A stretch of 64,000 nucleotides of DNA from Tranzscheliella williamsii (lineage: Eukaryota > Basidiomycota > Ustilaginomycetes > Ustilaginales > Ustilaginaceae), in contig JALBYF010000043.1 of the NCBI GenBank assembly GCA_023212725.1, positions 62,001-126,000 of the forward strand, written 5' to 3'. Positions within the stretch are counted from its first letter, which is position 1, and the number at the start of each line of letters is the position of its first letter. Below the pieces are notes generated by a model, which saw only the letters and a list, made by a program, of their open reading frames with translations, had not been told where the DNA came from and made no database searches. Shown in pieces: positions 55,071 to 64,000 of this stretch. The position numbers were made by a program, and so were the translations under genes.

Positions 55071-56546
55071 ATGTCGTCGTCTCAGGTTCATACTCTGGAG
55101 CTTGGCAACCCGGCCAGGCCCAGGCACGCTCTTTCGAACTCCAGTCCGGTTGAACAACATGGTCTGCGCCTGGCCGTCAAACGTGCGCTGAGCAGTCTCA
55201 CATATGGCAGCGATAAAACCACGTTCCTGAAAGAGGCCAGCTTATACACCTGCTTTGGTCTCGCCGGCTGGGTCGACGCCACTCCTGGCGCCTTACTCCC
55301 CGCGATTCGAGACCACTACCACCTGGACTTTGCCGTCGTCTCGATGCTCTTTGTCGGCAATTTCTTCGGCACGGTCACGTCGGCCTTCATCACTACCATT
55401 CTGGTCGACAAGATCGGCTTTGGCAAGACCGTCACGCTGGCCGGCGCCCTTGGGATCATTTTTCCCGTCCTTTTCCTCACCCTGCCGCCGTTTCCGGTCC
55501 TCGTTGTCGGCATGGCTTTTGTCGGCGGCTGCAACGGCATGCTCGAGGCGCTTGTCAACGTGTGGATGTCGCAGCGGCCGCGGGCCAACGTGCGCCTCGG
55601 CGTTGCCCATTTCCTCTACGGGTTCGGCGCGCTCTCGTCGCCCCTGGCTGCGATTCCGTTTGTCCATGTCGGCCGCGGCGGGCCGGCGTTCCAGCACTTT
55701 TTCTTCGCCTCGCTCGGACTTGCCATCGTCACTTGTCTGCTGGTCACTGTTGCCTTCCGGCTTCGGCGCGAAGAGCTCGTTGAAGGCACGCACGAGAGCG
55801 GTGCGGAAGCGTTGGAGCTGCGCGACAAGCCCGCACTGGACGCCGGCTCGGTGGGGACGCCTTCGGGCTCGACTGTACCGCGGGCGACGCAGGGGCTTGG
55901 CGCGGGCCAGAAGCTGCGGATCCTGCTGCGGCAGCGATACGTGCAGATGCTGTCGATCTTTACCATGATCTACGTGGGCGCCGAGGTGACGGTGGGCGGG
56001 TGGACGTCGACGTTCCTGATCGAGGTGCGCAACGAGGAGGCGAATGCCAATCTGCTCGTCTCGGGCTTTTGGGGCGGGATTGCGCTGGGGCGGATCCTGC
56101 TCATCCCGCTGACCGCGCTGATGGGCGACGAGGTGGCGTGTCTGCTCTACCTCTGTCTGGCCGTGGGGCTGCAGCTGCTCGTGTGGCTCGTGCCCAGCGT
56201 CGTGGCCAATGCCATTGCGCTGGCGCTGCTCGGCCTCTTTCTGGGCCCCGTCTTCCCCATCATGATCCGCAGCGCCAGCCGCAGCATCCGCCCGCGCGCC
56301 TTCCTCACCCCCGCCATCGGCTTCATCTCCGCCTTTGGCTCCGCAGGCATGGCGCTCCTCCCGCTCATCGTCGGCCTCGCCTCCCAAGCCGCCCCCTCCG
56401 GCATCCGCATCCTCTCCCCCATCCTCCTCGCCCTCCTCACCACCCTTGTCCTCCTCTGGGCCGCCGCCAACAAACCCTTCTTCCTCGCAACGCTCACCCA
56501 CCGCCCCCTCCCCGAATCCATCCACCTCGACAGCCGCGTCGACTGA
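55071..56546 (+). CDS. Major facilitator superfamily transporter
   Basis: 491 residues. About 12 membrane segments are visible: TCFGLAGWVDATPGALLPAIRDHY, FAVVSMLFVGNFFGTVTSAFI, FGKTVTLAGALGIIFPVLFL, PVLVVGMAFVGGCNGMLEAL and, in the second half, MLSIFTMIYVGAEVTVGGWTSTFLI, GFWGGIALGRILLIPLTALMG and others. The pattern GLAGWVDATPGALLPAI plus the large-branch GFWGGIALGR resembles the FucP/Bsc6 type fungal sugar-permease-like group. No substrate-defining motif is seen. The C-terminal half shows strong G/C codon use, as in neighbours. The 3' end converges with the P5B ATPase gene. Confidence 0.9.
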   Translation: MSSSQVHTLELGNPARPRHALSNSSPVEQHGLRLAVKRALSSLTYGSDKTTFLKEASLYTCFGLAGWVDATPGALLPAIRDHYHLDFAVVSMLFVGNFFGTVTSAFITTILVDKIGFGKTVTLAGALGIIFPVLFLTLPPFPVLVVGMAFVGGCNGMLEALVNVWMSQRPRANVRLGVAHFLYGFGALSSPLAAIPFVHVGRGGPAFQHFFFASLGLAIVTCLLVTVAFRLRREELVEGTHESGAEALELRDKPALDAGSVGTPSGSTVPRATQGLGAGQKLRILLRQRYVQMLSIFTMIYVGAEVTVGGWTSTFLIEVRNEEANANLLVSGFWGGIALGRILLIPLTALMGDEVACLLYLCLAVGLQLLVWLVPSVVANAIALALLGLFLGPVFPIMIRSASRSIRPRAFLTPAIGFISAFGSAGMALLPLIVGLASQAAPSGIRILSPILLALLTTLVLLWAAANKPFFLATLTHRPLPESIHLDSRVD

Positions 56547-56737: not shown

Positions 56738-59700
56738 CTATGGTGGGCCGGTGCGGGCGGAGAAGACGGAGAGGAGGAGGGCGGAAAAGTCGGCAAACAT
56801 GAACTGGGCGTCGCCGAGGGAGCTGCCGAAGGAGTACAGGAGGAGGACGGAGCAGAACTGGAGGAGCGAGGTGAGGCAGATGTAGGAGAAGCAGCCGAAC
56901 GAGGTGACCAGGGCGGCGCGGCCCTCCTTGATCGTGTCGATGACGCAGGCGATGTCGGGCTGGTTCGAGGTGAAGGGGGCTGCGACCGAGGCCTCTGCCT
57001 CGGAGAGCGAGATGCCGATGTCGGCGGCCTTGAGTGCGCCGCAGTCGTTGGCGCCGTCGCCACACATGCCCACGGTGTAGCCGAGCGCCTGGAGCCGCTC
57101 GATCAGCTCGTGCTTCTCGTCGGGCGACATGCGCGCAAAGATGGCGCCCTTGATCAGCATCCGCCGCAGCGTCTCCACCGGCGCAAAGTCGACCATCCAG
57201 CGGAACACATCGCCGGTCAACGCCAGCTGGTAGTCTTGGAAGTCAAACTCGTCTAGATCCAGCACGTGCCGGTCGGTCTCGCGCGGCTTGAGATTGTATG
57301 GGTCCAGCTTGATCCGGTCGTCGTCGACGCTCGACCAGTCGACCACGGCGCGCGCCGTCCGCTGCCCGCCCTCGACAAACGTCGGCATAAACACGTGCGC
57401 CGACGGCCCCACCATCCCGCACTCGCGCGCAACGCTGATCGCCGTCCGCGCATTGTCGCCCGTCACCATCTTGGTAATGATGTTGGCCTCCTTGAGCGTC
57501 GCAATCGCCGGCGCCGTCCCCTCCTTGAGCTTATTCTCAAAGATGATCAGCCCCAGGAAGCGCAGCCCGCTCTCCGCCTGCTCGCGCCGCATCCGCTGCG
57601 CCTTGATCCAGCTCATGCCCGGCATCGACTTGCCTGCACACGCAATCACACGGTATCCGTGCTTGGTGTAGTACGACAGCAGATCCTCGTAGTCGGCAGG
57701 GAAGCTGGCCTTGTCGCAGATATCGGCCATCACCTCCGGCGCTCCCTTGACGAACACCTCCATCGACTGGGACTTGAGCCGCTTCACAACTACGCTCATC
57801 CGCCGCAGCGCCGAGACAAACTCAAACGTCCGCAGCACACCCAGCTCGAGAAAGTGGGCATGTCGCCCCGACTTGATCGCATCCTCCATTTCGAACGCCT
57901 GGCCACCCGGCGGGCGGACAACCGTCTGCACCAGCGCAGGAGGCCGTTCGGTCAGCTTGCTCTTGCCGTTCTTGGCCGTGCCCGTCTTCGTGGTGGCCTT
58001 GGCAGAGCGTTCCTTGCCCTCGTCCAGCGTCCAGCCGGTGTATTCAAACATCTTGACGTCCAGCGGGTCGCCAATCACCTCTCCGTCGACCACCTTGAGC
58101 GAGTGGCAGGTCGCCAAAGCGTACAGCAGCGGGATTTTTCGCGCATCCGTGTCGCTCTTGCTCCCGATATTAACTGGCATTTCGTCGACGGTTTCGTGCA
58201 GCTCGCTGAACCGCCCGGCCTTGAGGTCGATCGTCCGGGCTCCTAGAACGTCCAGACCGTCGGCGGTCAGGGTCCCCGTCTTGTCGAAGCAGAAGACGTT
58301 GACTTTGCCGCCGATGATGACCCGGTTGGGGGAGATGCAAAAGATGCCAAGCTTCCGGAGGCGGTTGATGGCAAAAGAGATTCCGATCGACATGGTAGCG
58401 GGCAGCGCCGGCGGCACGACAACAGTAATAAGGTCCAGAGCGCGGATCACGATCGTATGCCAGGCGATTCCGATCTTGACAAAGTTGACCGCAGCACCGG
58501 TGAAGCCCACCGCAGCGACAATGGCAAGGAAGCCGATGAAGCGGAAAGAATCGCGATAGAACTTGAAACCCATGGGCTTCGGGAAGAGCATGCTCCGAAC
58601 CAGGGCCCCCTTGGTGGTATTGAATCCGGTGCGGACTACCATGGCCTTGGCGCCGGCTTCGTTTTTGTCACTGGTGCCGCTGCCTCGGATCCGGATGATG
58701 CGTGTGCCGGCGAAGAGAAAGTGTTTGGCAAGGTCCGGCGTGACATCGGTGCCATTGGCATGCAGGCCAGGTAAGCTTTGGGTAACCAGGGGCACCTTGC
58801 TGACTGGCACACTTTCTCCCGTTAGCATGCTTTCGTTGACAATGGCGTCTCCGCTCAGCAGCACACTGTCGGCGGGGAACAATAGCAGACCATTCTCGGT
58901 GACATCGTAGACGTCTCCTGGCACGAGAGCGCTGGAGTCCAAGGTTTGCCATGTGCCTTCACGCAAGACGCGAACCTCGCACGTGAAGCGGCTCATCTCG
59001 CGCATGCGATTTACCGTCTGGCGAGTCTCGATGAGGGTGGTGAAGATCGAAGCGAGTGATATCACTGCAATGCAGAAGGCATAGTAGTAGTAGTCGTCGA
59101 AAGACCAGAGGATAATGGAAACGATTTGAAACATGTAGAAGGGATGAAGTACCTCGTCGACAAGCAGCTGCCATGTCGATTTCGCCTTGATCTCAATCAG
59201 GTTGCCACCGAAGATGGTCGTCCGATCCTTTTCAGCATCCCAGGTGATTCCGTTGTTGATAGTGCTGATGGACGTCCAGAGAGGATCTCTCCAGTCCTTG
59301 ACCATTCTAAACCTTCCCGAAGGAGGATGGAGCGCGAAGCGGGTGTATCTGTAGTCGAAGTAGGTGAAGTCCATCAGTTGCTCGGTGTGTACGCCAGAAA
59401 GCATGGCTTGCGCAGGATCTCCCTCGGCGATCGCAGTCGCTGTGCTGCCGTTGACAGTGTCAGAGTGGAGTTTTGGGGAGCCATCGCCCACAATGCTGTT
59501 TTTGGCCGAAGTATTTTTGGAAGGGGCGTTGCTCTTGACGACAAGGCCCGGAGGGAGGGTGGCCGCGGGGCTGCTCTGGAATTCGGCCTGGGTTGCCGGA
59601 GGCTCTCGACTGGAGTGCGAGAAGACAGTGGCAAGCGGACGGGCAAAGGGAATCGTGACCATCTCCTCCTTGTGAAGATCACCCCACTGATTCTCGACCA

Positions 59701-61183
59701 TGATAAAGTCGGCATCTTCGAAGTTGACCTCCTGACAAACGTACTTGATGCGGAGCCCTGGCAGCCAGCGGCCAAGGAGATAAACAATGCCTACAGTGAG
59801 GAAGCAAACGACAGTGTAGAGGACGTGACGCAGGACCAGCGTGCGGTAGCCTTTGAAGCGGATCAGGGTATCTTCTTCGGCCAGGTAGACCTGCTGCCTA
59901 CTGCGGGTGTTCTTGTCGAGGAAGCTAAGCTCCTTCAGTGCGTCTGCCGTACTTTTTGCCGACTCGCCATCTCGATTGCCTGATCGATGGAGATCCGCAT
60001 CCGATCGCCCAAAGCCGGACGCGTTGACGTGTTCGGAAAGACGGCGACCGCCAATCTCTGCGTCGAGCTCGTCTTCCGGCGGATGGTCGGTGGAGTAGCG
60101 GGTATCACCAAACACGGGATCGACAGCACCGGTAAGTGTGCCGAAGGCGGACGGCAGGAGGCCGTTGCGGTTGGAGCCGCCTTCTTCGTCTGAGGTGTCA
60201 TAGGAAGATGGATCGTCTTCGTCCTCGTTGAAATCGTCGTTGTCGTCGAAGCCGTAATCCTCGTCGCTCCAACCTCTGCCGTCTTGATCCAGATCCGAAC
60301 GAGCGGCTTCAGACGGAGCACCGCGCGAAGAGAGAGCAGAGCTGGAAGAGTGCCTCCTGCCGAGCAAGGGACGGGAGAAGGAGCGGCGACTGGCCTTGTC
60401 GTCGTCGTCGTCGGGTCGATCGCCACGGAACGAGGCAAGGATGGAGCCCAACATGCCTTTGGGCTGGCTGGTTCCGGACAGGTCGGCGTCTTCGGGGAGG
60501 CGCTTCCTACGTCCAAAGTGGTAAGCGCTGCCGCTCCTGCCGCTTTTGCCGCTGCGTTGGCTTGGAGGCTTGCGACGGCCTGCCACCGAGTCAGGCGAGA
60601 TGCTACGTTCGCTGGACGTGGTAATCGCTTCGCTCTGTGCCGAGGCGGTGGAGAGTTTGCGGGTGCGACGGGGCGAACGGCCTTCCATAGAAATGCGTCT
60701 CCTGGAAGTGCGAGACGACTTGCGGCCGAGTTCTGGCCGAGCGAGTTGATGGCGCATGCTGCTGATAGAGCTGGGCACGGCACCTGCGCCTGGCCCATCA
60801 AAGATGCTAGCCTGCTCATCGTAGCTTCCCACCTGACTGTCTCTGCGCCTTCGCCGACCTATATCTAGAGGTGCTCCAGACGACGAATTGTCTTTCTCTT
60901 GGTCGCCGTGCAAGTCAAGGCCAGCGTCTCGCTGAGACTGGGCCCACTCGAAAGCCTCCCTGGTTTCGCTTTCGTCGAAGTAGGGCGATGAAGGAATGGG
61001 GGGGGAGCCTTCCTGCGCCACATCCGCTTGCTCTTCTGCCTGGTGGACTTGCCGTGCAGATGCCCTATCCGGCAGACGAAAAGGCGCTTGATACTCGTCT
61101 CCGGCGATTTCGAAAGGTTGCTGCGAGCCGGCACCGCGTCTCGGCGTTGCCTGCCCAGCATCGGGACGATGAGGCTCGGACAT
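56738..61183 (-). CDS. YPK9: P5B-type ATPase, N-terminal through M6 (Ypk9/ATP13A2-like), lacking the C-terminal membrane segments
   Basis: 1481 residues. About 400 disordered Ser/Arg/Asp-rich residues come first, then the P5B membrane and catalytic core: TLVLRHVLYTVVCFLTVGIVYLLGRW, A-domain MLTGESVPVSK (about 786), M4 VVPPALPATMSIG (PPALP, diagnostic of P5B, about 926), phosphorylation motif CFDKTGTLT (about 967), hinge CGDGANDCGAL (about 1376), then M5-M6 ending SALLLSVFSARTGPP and a TAG. Homologs continue through M7-M10; here those lie in a separate ORF upstream (61727-62347). P5B pumps move polyamines or similar cations out of late endosomes or vacuoles. In the next frame after the TAG, TIASPLQFLPHMLSGFFIAHLLAAIVA gives a different hydrophobic tail, so a frameshift-plus-divergence is another reading. 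Confidence 0.9.
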   Translation of the reverse strand: MSEPHRPDAGQATPRRGAGSQQPFEIAGDEYQAPFRLPDRASARQVHQAEEQADVAQEGSPPIPSSPYFDESETREAFEWAQSQRDAGLDLHGDQEKDNSSSGAPLDIGRRRRRDSQVGSYDEQASIFDGPGAGAVPSSISSMRHQLARPELGRKSSRTSRRRISMEGRSPRRTRKLSTASAQSEAITTSSERSISPDSVAGRRKPPSQRSGKSGRSGSAYHFGRRKRLPEDADLSGTSQPKGMLGSILASFRGDRPDDDDDKASRRSFSRPLLGRRHSSSSALSSRGAPSEAARSDLDQDGRGWSDEDYGFDDNDDFNEDEDDPSSYDTSDEEGGSNRNGLLPSAFGTLTGAVDPVFGDTRYSTDHPPEDELDAEIGGRRLSEHVNASGFGRSDADLHRSGNRDGESAKSTADALKELSFLDKNTRSRQQVYLAEEDTLIRFKGYRTLVLRHVLYTVVCFLTVGIVYLLGRWLPGLRIKYVCQEVNFEDADFIMVENQWGDLHKEEMVTIPFARPLATVFSHSSREPPATQAEFQSSPAATLPPGLVVKSNAPSKNTSAKNSIVGDGSPKLHSDTVNGSTATAIAEGDPAQAMLSGVHTEQLMDFTYFDYRYTRFALHPPSGRFRMVKDWRDPLWTSISTINNGITWDAEKDRTTIFGGNLIEIKAKSTWQLLVDEVLHPFYMFQIVSIILWSFDDYYYYAFCIAVISLASIFTTLIETRQTVNRMREMSRFTCEVRVLREGTWQTLDSSALVPGDVYDVTENGLLLFPADSVLLSGDAIVNESMLTGESVPVSKVPLVTQSLPGLHANGTDVTPDLAKHFLFAGTRIIRIRGSGTSDKNEAGAKAMVVRTGFNTTKGALVRSMLFPKPMGFKFYRDSFRFIGFLAIVAAVGFTGAAVNFVKIGIAWHTIVIRALDLITVVVPPALPATMSIGISFAINRLRKLGIFCISPNRVIIGGKVNVFCFDKTGTLTADGLDVLGARTIDLKAGRFSELHETVDEMPVNIGSKSDTDARKIPLLYALATCHSLKVVDGEVIGDPLDVKMFEYTGWTLDEGKERSAKATTKTGTAKNGKSKLTERPPALVQTVVRPPGGQAFEMEDAIKSGRHAHFLELGVLRTFEFVSALRRMSVVVKRLKSQSMEVFVKGAPEVMADICDKASFPADYEDLLSYYTKHGYRVIACAGKSMPGMSWIKAQRMRREQAESGLRFLGLIIFENKLKEGTAPAIATLKEANIITKMVTGDNARTAISVARECGMVGPSAHVFMPTFVEGGQRTARAVVDWSSVDDDRIKLDPYNLKPRETDRHVLDLDEFDFQDYQLALTGDVFRWMVDFAPVETLRRMLIKGAIFARMSPDEKHELIERLQALGYTVGMCGDGANDCGALKAADIGISLSEAEASVAAPFTSNQPDIACVIDTIKEGRAALVTSFGCFSYICLTSLLQFCSVLLLYSFGSSLGDAQFMFADFSALLLSVFSARTGPP

Positions 61184-61726
61184 GATCAGATCTGGCAGGG
61201 AGACAGGACAGAACGGGAGCTAGGCGAGCGGCGTCCTGCAACCGAGGGCCATGAAGACGTAAGTGGGTTTACAGGGTTAAGAGGTGTAGGGATGCGACGG
61301 GAAGAGGTGGTCGGTTGATGGGCCCAACCACAGTGATTTGCGAAGCTGCGCCTTTGCTCTTTGCAGGTCTACAAATAACAGCGACCTAACACTCATTGCG
61401 TCAACCCGCAGCTTGTGGCGCGTGGCTGATGTGCAGGCAGGAGAGCGCAACCTCTCATCGAGCAGCGACTTCACAGCTCACACTGTTCGGGGATGAACCT
61501 AACCCGTCGTTGGCGTCTGAATCTTACACCCCTGACTACCTGTCTACCCGCTTCACGGCAGAGTAACACGGGCCGCCGTTATTGACGACGGACACCGCTG
61601 CCCGAACAGTGGCAAAGGGGAAAGTGTTGAGCGACGACGAAGCGCCAATACAAGTACAGGAGGATGGAAGGATACGGAGGTGGATACGTTCGGTTGCGCA
61701 GGGACGAGCAGCGGGGGAAGTGAGGA
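61184..61726. other. Spacer between the two parts of the P5B ATPase
   Basis: 543 bases: 3' flank of the M7-M10 ORF and 5' flank of the main ATPase ORF. No open frame links the two in the order M6-M7. Nothing else was recognised. Confidence 0.55.
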
Positions 61727-62347
61727 TCATGGATCGCCGTCGTGTTGCATGCCCCTTTCGACAGACTTGTACATCTTGGAGCCATGCTTGCGGGACTTTC
61801 CCTTGCGCGCCCTTCTGAAGAAGCGCTGTAAACCTTTGGTGGCCTTGACAACGTGCTTCGACAGGACCGTCTCGAAGAGGAAGCAGAGACAGGTGTTGAG
61901 GAGGACAGCGACGAAGAGAGCCACGTGGAAGGATCGGGGGAAAGAGACCAAGCCAAGCAGATCGAAGACGACGCCAGAGGGCGTGAAGAGTGCATAGAGA
62001 GAGAAGAGCAGGAGCGCCGACACGGTGCCCATCAGCCAGACGTTGGTGTAGACGGGCTTGCGGTAGGGATACCCGGTGCTGTATACCAGCGAGCCAATGA
62101 TGTACTGGAATGACGAGATGAGGAAGATGGCCGAGTTCTCCGGGTTGGTCACGTTGAGCTCATCAGGGTTGATCTGTGGCGGCTCATACCACGGCTGTCT
62201 GCGGGTGTACCAAAATGCCCATAGCTGGAACGAGCCACAGATGGCGATCTGCCCGATCAAGCTGACCAGAACCTTGCACGAGACCAGGTTTGCAGTGGGC
62301 GCTTTTGGATGGATGGGCGTATGCACCTGTGCATATCCACTGGACAT
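61727..62347 (-). CDS. Separate ORF carrying the C-terminal M7-M10 membrane part of a P5B ATPase
   Basis: 206 residues from MSSGYAQVHTPIHPKAPTANLVS, where HPKxPTANLVS is the usual start of the P5B M6-M7 region. Four membrane segments follow: VLVSLIGQIAICGSFQLWAFWY, SAIFLISSFQYIIGSLVYST, LMGTVSALLLFSLYALF and FHVALFVAVLLNTCLCFLFETVL, then a basic tail (RRARKGKSRKHGSK). The loop QPWYEPPQINPDELNVTNPENS between the first two segments matches the lumenal loop of Ypk9/ATP13A2. It contains no catalytic residues. The main ORF of the same family lies downstream and stops just before this part. It may be a remnant of a second tandem copy or a living half-gene. Confidence 0.85.
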   Translation of the reverse strand: MSSGYAQVHTPIHPKAPTANLVSCKVLVSLIGQIAICGSFQLWAFWYTRRQPWYEPPQINPDELNVTNPENSAIFLISSFQYIIGSLVYSTGYPYRKPVYTNVWLMGTVSALLLFSLYALFTPSGVVFDLLGLVSFPRSFHVALFVAVLLNTCLCFLFETVLSKHVVKATKGLQRFFRRARKGKSRKHGSKMYKSVERGMQHDGDP

Positions 62348-62637: not shown

Positions 62638-64000
62638 ATGCTAAGGTCGCGACCGGCCCAACTTGTCCTTGCCAGCTTCCTGGTTCTGCTGAGCGCAGTC
62701 TTTCTGCGTCCAAGGCATTCCCCAGCTCCGCCACAGTCGTCGGCTTCGGCGGCTTCCATCGGTATCGATCTCGCGGGACAGTTGGCTGATAGCTTCGGCG
62801 AGCACCCGGTCATGTCCCAGCGCAACCTCAGCGCCTCAGCGGCTAGCGGCAAGCCAAGGGTACTTCTCGTCAATGACGATGGGCCGCCGTCCAAGGTGAG
62901 TAAGCAGAGGGCTGTATTTTGTCTGTGTCGCCCTCAAGACCGGTTTCTGACGCCTGTCGTCTCTCACAGCACTCGCCTCACGTCTTGGGGCTGTACGAAG
63001 CGCTCACCTCGCTAGGCTGGGATGTGACCGTGGTCCTGCCTTCTTTCCAAAAGTCGTGGGGGTCTATGCAGTTCTCGCTGCAGGGGCCGGTCAGCTATTG
63101 GTACTACTATCCGCTGAAGGACAACTTCGACGGGTCGCATCCAGGTACGGCAGAGTCGTGGTCGTCCACGCGGAGGCCGATCAACCGGGAACGCGGGGAG
63201 ATGGCCGAGTGGATTCTGCTGGACGGCTCGCCGACGACGGCGTGCAATGCGGGCCTGTTTAATCAGAATGCCTTCTTTGGCGTCTCGCAGCAGGCGGAGG
63301 GGGGCGCAGCCTCCACCGAGACGCCATTTGATCTGGTGGTGTCTGGGCCCAACTTTGGGCGGAATACGGGTACGGCGTTTGCGCTGTCGTCAGGGACGCT
63401 GGGGGCAGCGATGGCGGCGTCGCTGGCGGGGGTGCGGAGCATTGCGCTCTCCTTTGGCCATTTTGTGAGCAACCCGCCGACGTCGGCGGAGCGCGCGCGC
63501 GCCACGGGCCCGGGGCTCACGCCAGCGCGGTTGCGCGAGCTGGCGACAACCGCCAACCAGCTCGCCGCTGCGCTCACGCAGAGGCTCTGGCAGAGCTGGC
63601 ACACCGAACCAGAGGTGGGCTGCTACAGCGTCAACGTTCCGCTCAGCGAGACGCTGGTCCAGCCCCAAGTCGTCTGGACGCGGATCTGGGAGAACCGCTA
63701 CGGTCCGCTGTTCGCCGCCAATGCCGCGTCGCACTACACCTCCCCCCCAGCCCCGCTCCCACCCACGGCACCTCGCCCTGAACGCACGCTCCACTTTGCC
63801 CCCAACATGGCCTCTCTCCTCGGCCCCAAAATACTCCCTCCCGGCACCGACGTCTGGGCGATCCTCAACGGCTACATCAGCATCTCGCGCCTCCGCCCTA
63901 ACTTTATGGAGGTCGACAAGGACGGCCGCGGCCTCGACCCGCCGCGCACCGGCAGCGCCACAGCCACGCCACCCGAGCTCACGCCGGCCCTTGATCTCGA
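62638..64000 (+). CDS. SurE-like phosphatase/nucleotidase, secreted or membrane-anchored, partial
   Basis: Exon 1 is 62638-62895 and exon 2 starts at 62970 (donor GTGAGT, acceptor CTCACAG), joining NDDGPPSK to HSPHVLGLYEAL in phase 0. Exon 2 is open to the window end, so the C-terminus is missing. The N-terminus MLRSRPAQLVLASFLVLLSAVFL is a signal peptide or anchor. The SurE fold shows the metal-binding NDDG near residue 80, a downstream block LVVSGPNFGRNTG with the SGPNxGxN signature, then GTLGAAMAASLAGVRSIALS. SurE proteins are divalent-metal-dependent nucleotidases or acid phosphatases. In fungi they include secreted acid phosphatase-like proteins and the SurE-TTL protein Pby1; the signal peptide favours the former. 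Confidence 0.88.

Follow-up and report, generated by a model that had tools for sequence, protein, structure and literature searches.

Can a P5B ATPase be cut in two in nature, with the order of its parts exchanged, and still be kept as a pump? P-type ATPases of classes P2 to P5 are regarded as single catalytic chains with ten transmembrane (TM) helices, and the question is raised by a 64,000-nucleotide stretch of DNA from the smut fungus Tranzscheliella williamsii (GenBank assembly GCA_023212725.1, contig JALBYF010000043.1, positions 62,001 to 126,000; the whole stretch is called the window). Two open reading frames (ORFs) on its reverse strand encode complementary parts of one P5B ATPase, everything up to the sixth membrane helix (M6) in one and M7-M10 in the other. 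Comparison with homologous sequences gives us good confidence that this is a naturally split P5B ATPase of the Ypk9/ATP13A2 type, encoded by two genes and probably working as a two-subunit pump in which M5 and M6 have been rebuilt.

The two ORFs and the interval between them are placed as follows (window coordinates here and below):

61727..62347, reverse strand: the C chain, a stand-alone M7-M10 ORF of 206 amino acids (aa), matched by TIGR01657, with 27 homologues and a fold modelled by AlphaFold2 (AF2)
61184..61726, reverse strand: spacer of 543 bp that follows the C-chain stop and precedes the main-chain start; by its position, it is presumed to hold the main-chain promoter
56738..61183, reverse strand: the main chain, a P5B ATPase ORF of 1481 aa running from the N-terminus to M6, matched by TIGR01657, PF12409 and PF00122

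The main chain ends in SVFSARTGPP, followed by a TAG stop at 56738-56740, while the small ORF, which includes HPKAPTANLVS, lies 543 bp upstream of the main-chain ATG on the same strand, with the M7-M10 part first. The small frame stays open further upstream, to a GTG at 62734 in the ORF table, and the ATG at 62347 is the start site of most aligned relatives. A first-pass annotation, made from the letters of the window, had both ORFs right in coordinates, strand and order, and had correctly put the junction at the M6-M7 loop.

TIGR01657 (P-ATPase-V, length 1055) matches the main ORF at positions 4-904 and the small ORF at 919-1054, so that the two are complementary with zero overlap. The main chain scores 961.7 bits, above the curated cutoff of 618.25; the C chain alone, at the complementary positions, scores 72.9 bits, under that cutoff. 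The P5 N-terminal domain PF12409 is found at main-chain residues 437-534 (89.1 bits against a cutoff of 22.7), PF00122 is also matched, and four sequence motifs are present in the main chain:

58811..58822, reverse strand: TGES, dephosphorylation loop of the A domain, residues 788-791
58400..58414, reverse strand: PPALP, P5B signature in M4, residues 924-928
58271..58285, reverse strand: DKTGT, phosphorylation site, residues 967-971
57044..57061, reverse strand: GDGAND, hinge of the P domain, residues 1375-1380

PPALP is named as the P5B signature in the available text of PMC8233418. Judged by its sequence, the protein has its catalytic motifs and P5 N-domain intact, and the ATPase engine appears unchanged. 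The usual ten-helix core is not found in one polypeptide, as the helices up to M6 are in one ORF and M7-M10 in another; that core is the usual architecture and lies outside the sequence definition of P5B, and the protein can be described as P5B by sequence and new by architecture.

Is the break peculiar to this assembly? The main-chain homologues considered are the best 120 of 7756 (7980 candidates scored). All 18 of the best (P0001-P0018; 81-89% identity over the searched part) have their C-terminus, SARTGPP or SARTGPY, 107 residues from the first residue of GDGAND, and the closest relative listed, Testicularia cyperi, is 89% identical in the main chain (from residue 430) and 83% in the C chain. 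Among the lower rows (P0019-P0120), 100 of 102 extend at least 130 residues from GDGAND, beyond the M6-M7 loop. One of the two exceptions, P0020 from Melanopsichium, ends in SARTGPA. The other, P0074 from Rhizoctonia solani AG-1 IB, has an M6 of the fused type, breaks off 105 residues from GDGAND and was rejected as a split protein; it is probably a truncated model, because other Rhizoctonia rows are full length. A further row, P0004, is filed under Cichorium endivia (L1887_60628); its 87% identity and its C-terminus SARTGPY suggest that this plant assembly probably carries smut DNA.

For the C chain, the homologue search returned at least 27 stand-alone M7-M10 proteins of 142-307 aa. Part of these rows, as of the main-chain rows, carry a source name, the named sources of the C chain being Testicularia, Ustilago, Melanopsichium, Thecaphora, Pseudozyma, Kalmanozyma, Sporisorium and Mycosarcoma (U. 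maydis, UMAG_05267). A profile search with M7-M10 (7999 candidates scored) gave at least 29 matches at E≤1e-5, namely those 27 together with Meira and Olpidium, neither of which was accepted as a stand-alone protein. The Meira miltonrushii entry (P0148), like the Olpidium one a candidate from outside the smuts, is marked 'partial', lacks a Met and has fused-type residues. Its first residues, IHPKRPT, lie in the M6-M7 loop; this start may mark an exon border there, with a bearing on the origin of the fission. The Olpidium protein (P0149, from a metagenome-assembled genome) retains GDGAND, misses M5-M6 and comes from a contig of 2.9 kb; its gene model is probably broken.

Both halves are named in seven species (T. 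cyperi, U. loliicola, P. hubeiensis, T. frezii, P. flocculosa, K. brasiliensis and M. pennsylvanicum), only the C chain in U. maydis, S. graminicola and S. reilianum, and only the main chain in U. hordei. In the first five of the seven, which are all those that can be compared, the halves lie on contigs of equal size; in K. brasiliensis and M. pennsylvanicum no contig is given for the main chain, and three further pairs (U. trichophora, S. scitamineum and one on a 33,990-base contig) were themselves paired by equal contig size.

These species span more than one order: Thecaphora belongs to the Urocystidales, Testicularia to the Ustilaginales and Violaceomyces to the Violaceomycetales, all within the Ustilaginomycetes. 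The Violaceomyces protein P0019, a partial record, runs unbroken through the M6-M7 loop into M8. In trees of the ATPase engine, built with nine split species (the window and eight pairs; P0013/P0147 and P0020/P0129 were left out), the split clade has a support of 100, and Violaceomyces together with the split clade a support of 91. With a fused Violaceomyces as sister to a supported split clade, one fission after the Violaceomyces branch is the simplest reading. Complementary ORFs span the ancestral protein and are fixed in the clade, and the protein of the outgroup is fused; by these comparisons the split is old and common to the sampled Ustilaginales and Urocystidales.

Because the same two-part layout is found in other species, chance is excluded. 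The first-pass annotation had weighed a two-chain P-type ATPase against a dying second copy, an assembly error and a missed frameshift, and had asked whether related smuts carry a single ORF here. They do not in the species listed, whereas Violaceomyces and other basidiomycetes do, and the conservation of both halves in two smut orders favours the two-chain proposal and contradicts the other three. Decay or artefact, for which nothing more speaks than the odd order of the parts, is in our judgement extremely improbable: the split and its end point recur in many other sequences, the halves are linked on one contig in five of five comparable species, the catalytic motifs are intact, and no other complete copy of this subtype was found among the candidates scored in the T. 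williamsii genome.

That genome (18.2 Mb, 135 contigs) was searched with the best candidates scored. The main ORF gave 27 matches, one of them full and the others more distant P-type ATPases; the small ORF gave one full match and, on contig 89, the tail of a paralogue that is fused; and at the DNA level the locus matched only itself and that paralogue. One copy of each half was found. The paralogue, a second P5B (G000:C89:57824-61048; L002 895-4971, reverse strand), is a single fused chain of 1358 aa with the same domains as the main chain and 47% identity to it over residues 742-1470, and, unlike the split pump, it retains by eye the Lys and Tyr of M5. As the sole other close match, it is too divergent to count as a fused copy of the same subtype, and no such copy was found elsewhere in the genome among the candidates scored.

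A joining step such as trans-splicing could in principle remake a single full-length chain from the two genes. The last 60 nucleotides of the main coding sequence and the next 60 (TCCGTCTTC) contain two GT dinucleotides, at 56798 and 56767, and neither resembles a consensus donor. All 18 of the best main-chain matches share one end point, and most aligned C chains have an ATG at a similar place. Such joining is on this evidence very unlikely, even with the precedent of the split Hsp90 gene of Giardia (PMC8494341, in the part available).

If the engine is unchanged, what distinguishes the split pump? The answer lies largely in one segment of the main chain:

56741..56899, reverse strand: M5-M6, remodelled cargo helices, residues 1429-1481, ending in SVFSARTGPP, with 11 of 32 conserved sites changed

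For the comparison with a split set of 19 sequences (the window and P0001-P0018, without P0020), we took the sites with at least 95% conservation across 93 fused homologues. The fused set is drawn from the 102 rows P0019-P0120; P0019 (aligned, uncounted), P0020, P0024, P0027, P0030, P0032, P0038, P0074 and P0102 were left out for having fewer than 270 residues from GDGAND, or at least 1800 aa. Conserved sites changed in the split clade number 11 of 32 in M5-M6 and 1 of 329 elsewhere in the main chain (Fisher p 5e-12), the sole change outside M5-M6 being N956I. Those within are K1433S, M1435I, A1436C, Y1438T, A1453G, I1464 to A/V/L, deletion of the Leu after D1465, I1468 to A/V/C, loss of P1470, A1472S and M1475S. 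Three control sets of fused rows, picked by row number and name, have no M5-M6 change: 19 Malassezia-like rows (0/31, with 10/353 elsewhere), 6 Tilletia-like rows (0/34, with 1/332) and 15 Tremellales-like rows (0/31, with 5/333).

With the engine tree fixed, change along the split-clade stem amounts to 0.050 per site for the engine, 0.471 for M7-M10 and 1.051 for the 55 columns of M5-M6, compared with 4.356, 7.528 and 1.68, respectively, over the rest of the tree. M5-M6 was rewritten on this stem, about the time of the split. In an earlier tree without Violaceomyces, M5-M6 change is at most 0.04 in 11 of 16 branches, and U. trichophora (0.402) and K. brasiliensis (0.176) make up over half of the total, a pattern that we take to reflect a burst of change, after which constraint returned in most of the nine species in the comparison.

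The rewritten helices contain part of the cargo site. The spermine contacts given for Ypk9 in the available text of PMC8233418 (D630, Y1157, D1177 and D1184) align here to D917, T1438, D1458 and D1465: the three cargo Asp are retained, and the spermine-contact Tyr is Thr in all 19 split sequences aligned. The human Site1 residues Q944, F963 and D967 (PMC10082790, in the part available) are retained in the same alignment. With the acids kept and Tyr replaced by Thr, polycation binding is still plausible, though in an altered pocket. The cargo itself may be new, and the handling of cargo has probably changed while the engine has not.

The detached part, for its own part, has kept much of what a fused tail has. 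Two features of the C chain are relevant:

61853..62278, reverse strand: M7-M10 helices, residues about 24-165 (AF2 helices 24-49, 69-90, 103-121 and 138-186; hydropathy)
61739..61780, reverse strand: C-terminal helix (190-203), likely to dock on the P domain (AF2, low pLDDT)

The AF2 model of the C chain superposes on TM7-10 of the P5B structure 7op1 with an rmsd of 2.7 Å over 163 columns (the 50 best rows of the fold searches were considered), and the chain is predicted to fold as P5-type TM7-10. The structures 7op1, 7op3, 7op5 and 7op8 are of Chaetomium Ypk9. In sequence, the C chain (27 C chains and the window) retains 34 of the 38 sites conserved in fused tails, and K191, Y193, E197, R198 and M200, in the C-terminal helix, are invariant in 23 aligned C-chain sequences; the C-terminus of Ypk9 contacts the P domain, according to the available text of PMC8233418. 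Two alignments were used, A1 with 22 of the 27 stand-alone matches and the window, and A3 with 25 of the 27, 16 fused proteins and the window.

How could two such chains make one pump? The gene would have been broken in the short M6-M7 loop in an ancestor of the sampled Ustilaginales and Urocystidales, after Violaceomyces had diverged, and its parts would have become two distinct genes, each having a start and a stop of its own. Both genes were retained, as is seen at the protein level. In the topology of P-type ATPases, a cut in the cytosolic M6-M7 loop gives two chains that each have an even helix count and cytosolic ends, so that each could insert into the membrane alone. The four-TM chain would then pack onto M5-M6 of the main chain and dock on the P domain via its conserved C-terminal helix, and the two-subunit pump would run the usual phosphorylation cycle. 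On the same branch, M5 and M6 were rebuilt, Tyr giving way to Thr and M6 losing one residue and its invariant Pro, with the acidic cargo residues kept. Most likely, we infer, the two chains form one pump with altered cargo handling. It is a more tentative suggestion that the P-type ATPase of smuts is truly two-subunit and acquired, through fission and the rebuilding of M5-M6, a new cargo or another form of control; its M7-M10 subunit could then be produced, held back or swapped separately from the catalytic chain.

Several results weigh against a two-subunit pump that arose in this way. P5A structures fit the C chain as well as P5B ones do (VIA-align), and the main chain is modelled by AF2 with low confidence (pLDDT 68, pTM 0.47). 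Six of the 27 stand-alone models depart from the expected extent, four (P0142, P0145, P0146 and P0147) beginning within or after M7 and two (P0136 and P0144) being longer; all six are probably model errors. Since K1433S is also present in the fused Violaceomyces protein, change in M5 began before the split, probably with K1433S. Within the split clade, M5-M6 changes at 1.033 per site and M7-M10 at 1.174, against 0.418 for the engine, which is 2.5 and 2.8 times the engine value (0.39 and 1.7 times in the rest of the tree); this faster change could mean looser constraint, including on the whole of M5-M6. Finally, rates in M5-M6 and M7-M10 are uncorrelated in the split clade (rho 0.03, p 0.91, 16 branches), and the sequences thus give no positive sign of co-evolution.

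Some of these points would be expected if the chains no longer cooperated, the main chain being a six-TM pump and the M7-M10 chain having another job. The cores of P1B-type ATPases do act as six-TM pumps. Moreover, M5-M6, the surface that would face M7-M10, has been rewritten, with M6 shortened, and the uncorrelated rates and the faster change of both parts relative to the engine point the same way. Against this, the C chain retains 34 of 38 fused-tail sites and an invariant C-terminal motif, and both halves are named in seven species; we consider a loss of cooperation unlikely, and prefer the two-subunit pump.

There remains the order of the parts. An M7-M10 part that lies upstream on the same strand is expected of tandem duplication followed by complementary loss, the route proposed in the first-pass annotation; fission in place would put M7-M10 downstream. 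The C-part-first order and the linkage of the halves fit that proposal, and the search for remnants counts against it: six local-alignment tests around both ORFs, with 200 shuffles each, found no significant remnant of a tandem duplication. In the best test, 11 of 200 shuffles reached the score (the region upstream of the C-chain ATG against Violaceomyces M5-M6), in the second, 22 of 200 (the spacer against the main-chain N-terminus), and in the others 73-128 of 200. With no significant remnant, and the order read in T. williamsii only, tandem duplication with complementary loss is something that we infer, as a plausible and the best explanation of this order. The annotation's term 'circular permutation' does not apply, because each half has its own start and stop and is a separate ORF.

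As to origin only, the gene may instead have been split in place, by a stop and a new promoter in the M6-M7 loop, with the order swapped by a later rearrangement. Such a history would explain why no duplication remnant was found, and it is consistent with locus tags that are 12 apart in T. frezii and 6 apart in P. flocculosa, where genes therefore probably lie between the halves. It requires two separate events, however, and U. loliicola (002430/002431) and P. hubeiensis (005570/005571) have consecutively numbered tags; we give it appreciable weight, short of an even chance.

On the main-chain side, the locus is bordered by a convergent gene of the Major Facilitator Superfamily (55071-56546, forward strand; PF07690), which ends 191 bp from the main-chain stop. 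On the other side, a divergent ORF (62638-63015, forward strand) starts 290 bp from the C-chain start, and the two may share a promoter region. By eye, a VNDDG stretch in this ORF looks SurE-like, and no Pfam match was obtained in that piece.

No report of a naturally split P5B or other P-type ATPase was found among the papers listed from the open-licence literature searched, which leaves out most subscription-journal papers; in their available parts, two papers on P5 ATPases (PMC5837089 and PMC12655044) use 'split' in unrelated senses only. The smut pump offers a natural experiment, in two orders, in which evolution tolerates a cut between M6 and M7 and combines it with a burst of sequence change in the cargo helices. 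It becomes possible to test what M7-M10 add to the pump and which residues of M5-M6 determine the cargo choice of P5B ATPases.

Like Ypk9 and human ATP13A2, the main chain has the TIGR01657 match, DKTGT, TGES, GDGAND, PPALP and PF12409; like Ypk9, it retains the acidic cargo residues (D917, D1458 and D1465), and the C chain has the predicted fold of TM7-10. Unlike either, it is encoded with its C chain by two genes rather than one and has an M6 that is one residue shorter and without its Pro; unlike Ypk9, it has Thr at the position of Tyr1157 in the 19 split sequences aligned. Fragments of artificially split SERCA, a P-type ATPase, can assemble, as cited in the available text of PMC3464245; that split is engineered, whereas the smut one is natural. 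The closer parallel is split-Doa10 of Kluyveromyces, described in the same text, which is cut in a cytosolic loop and assembles into an active enzyme; together these precedents indicate that assembly of the two smut chains is possible. Both split-Doa10 and the smut pump are polytopic membrane proteins whose nuclear gene was broken at a cytosolic loop, and both exist as two ORFs throughout a clade. In split-Doa10, as there described, the parts stand in their original order with 508 bp between them, and the split is found at genus level, whereas the smut parts are swapped in order and the split spans two orders; the smut protein, unlike Doa10, is a P-type pump with remodelled helices, and assembly, tested for Doa10, is here the expectation. 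Its authors called split-Doa10 the first unequivocal case in 2012 (PMC3464245, available text), and the smut pump would stand beside it as another clearly marked fission of a nuclear gene for a polytopic membrane protein, one in which the gene order is altered.

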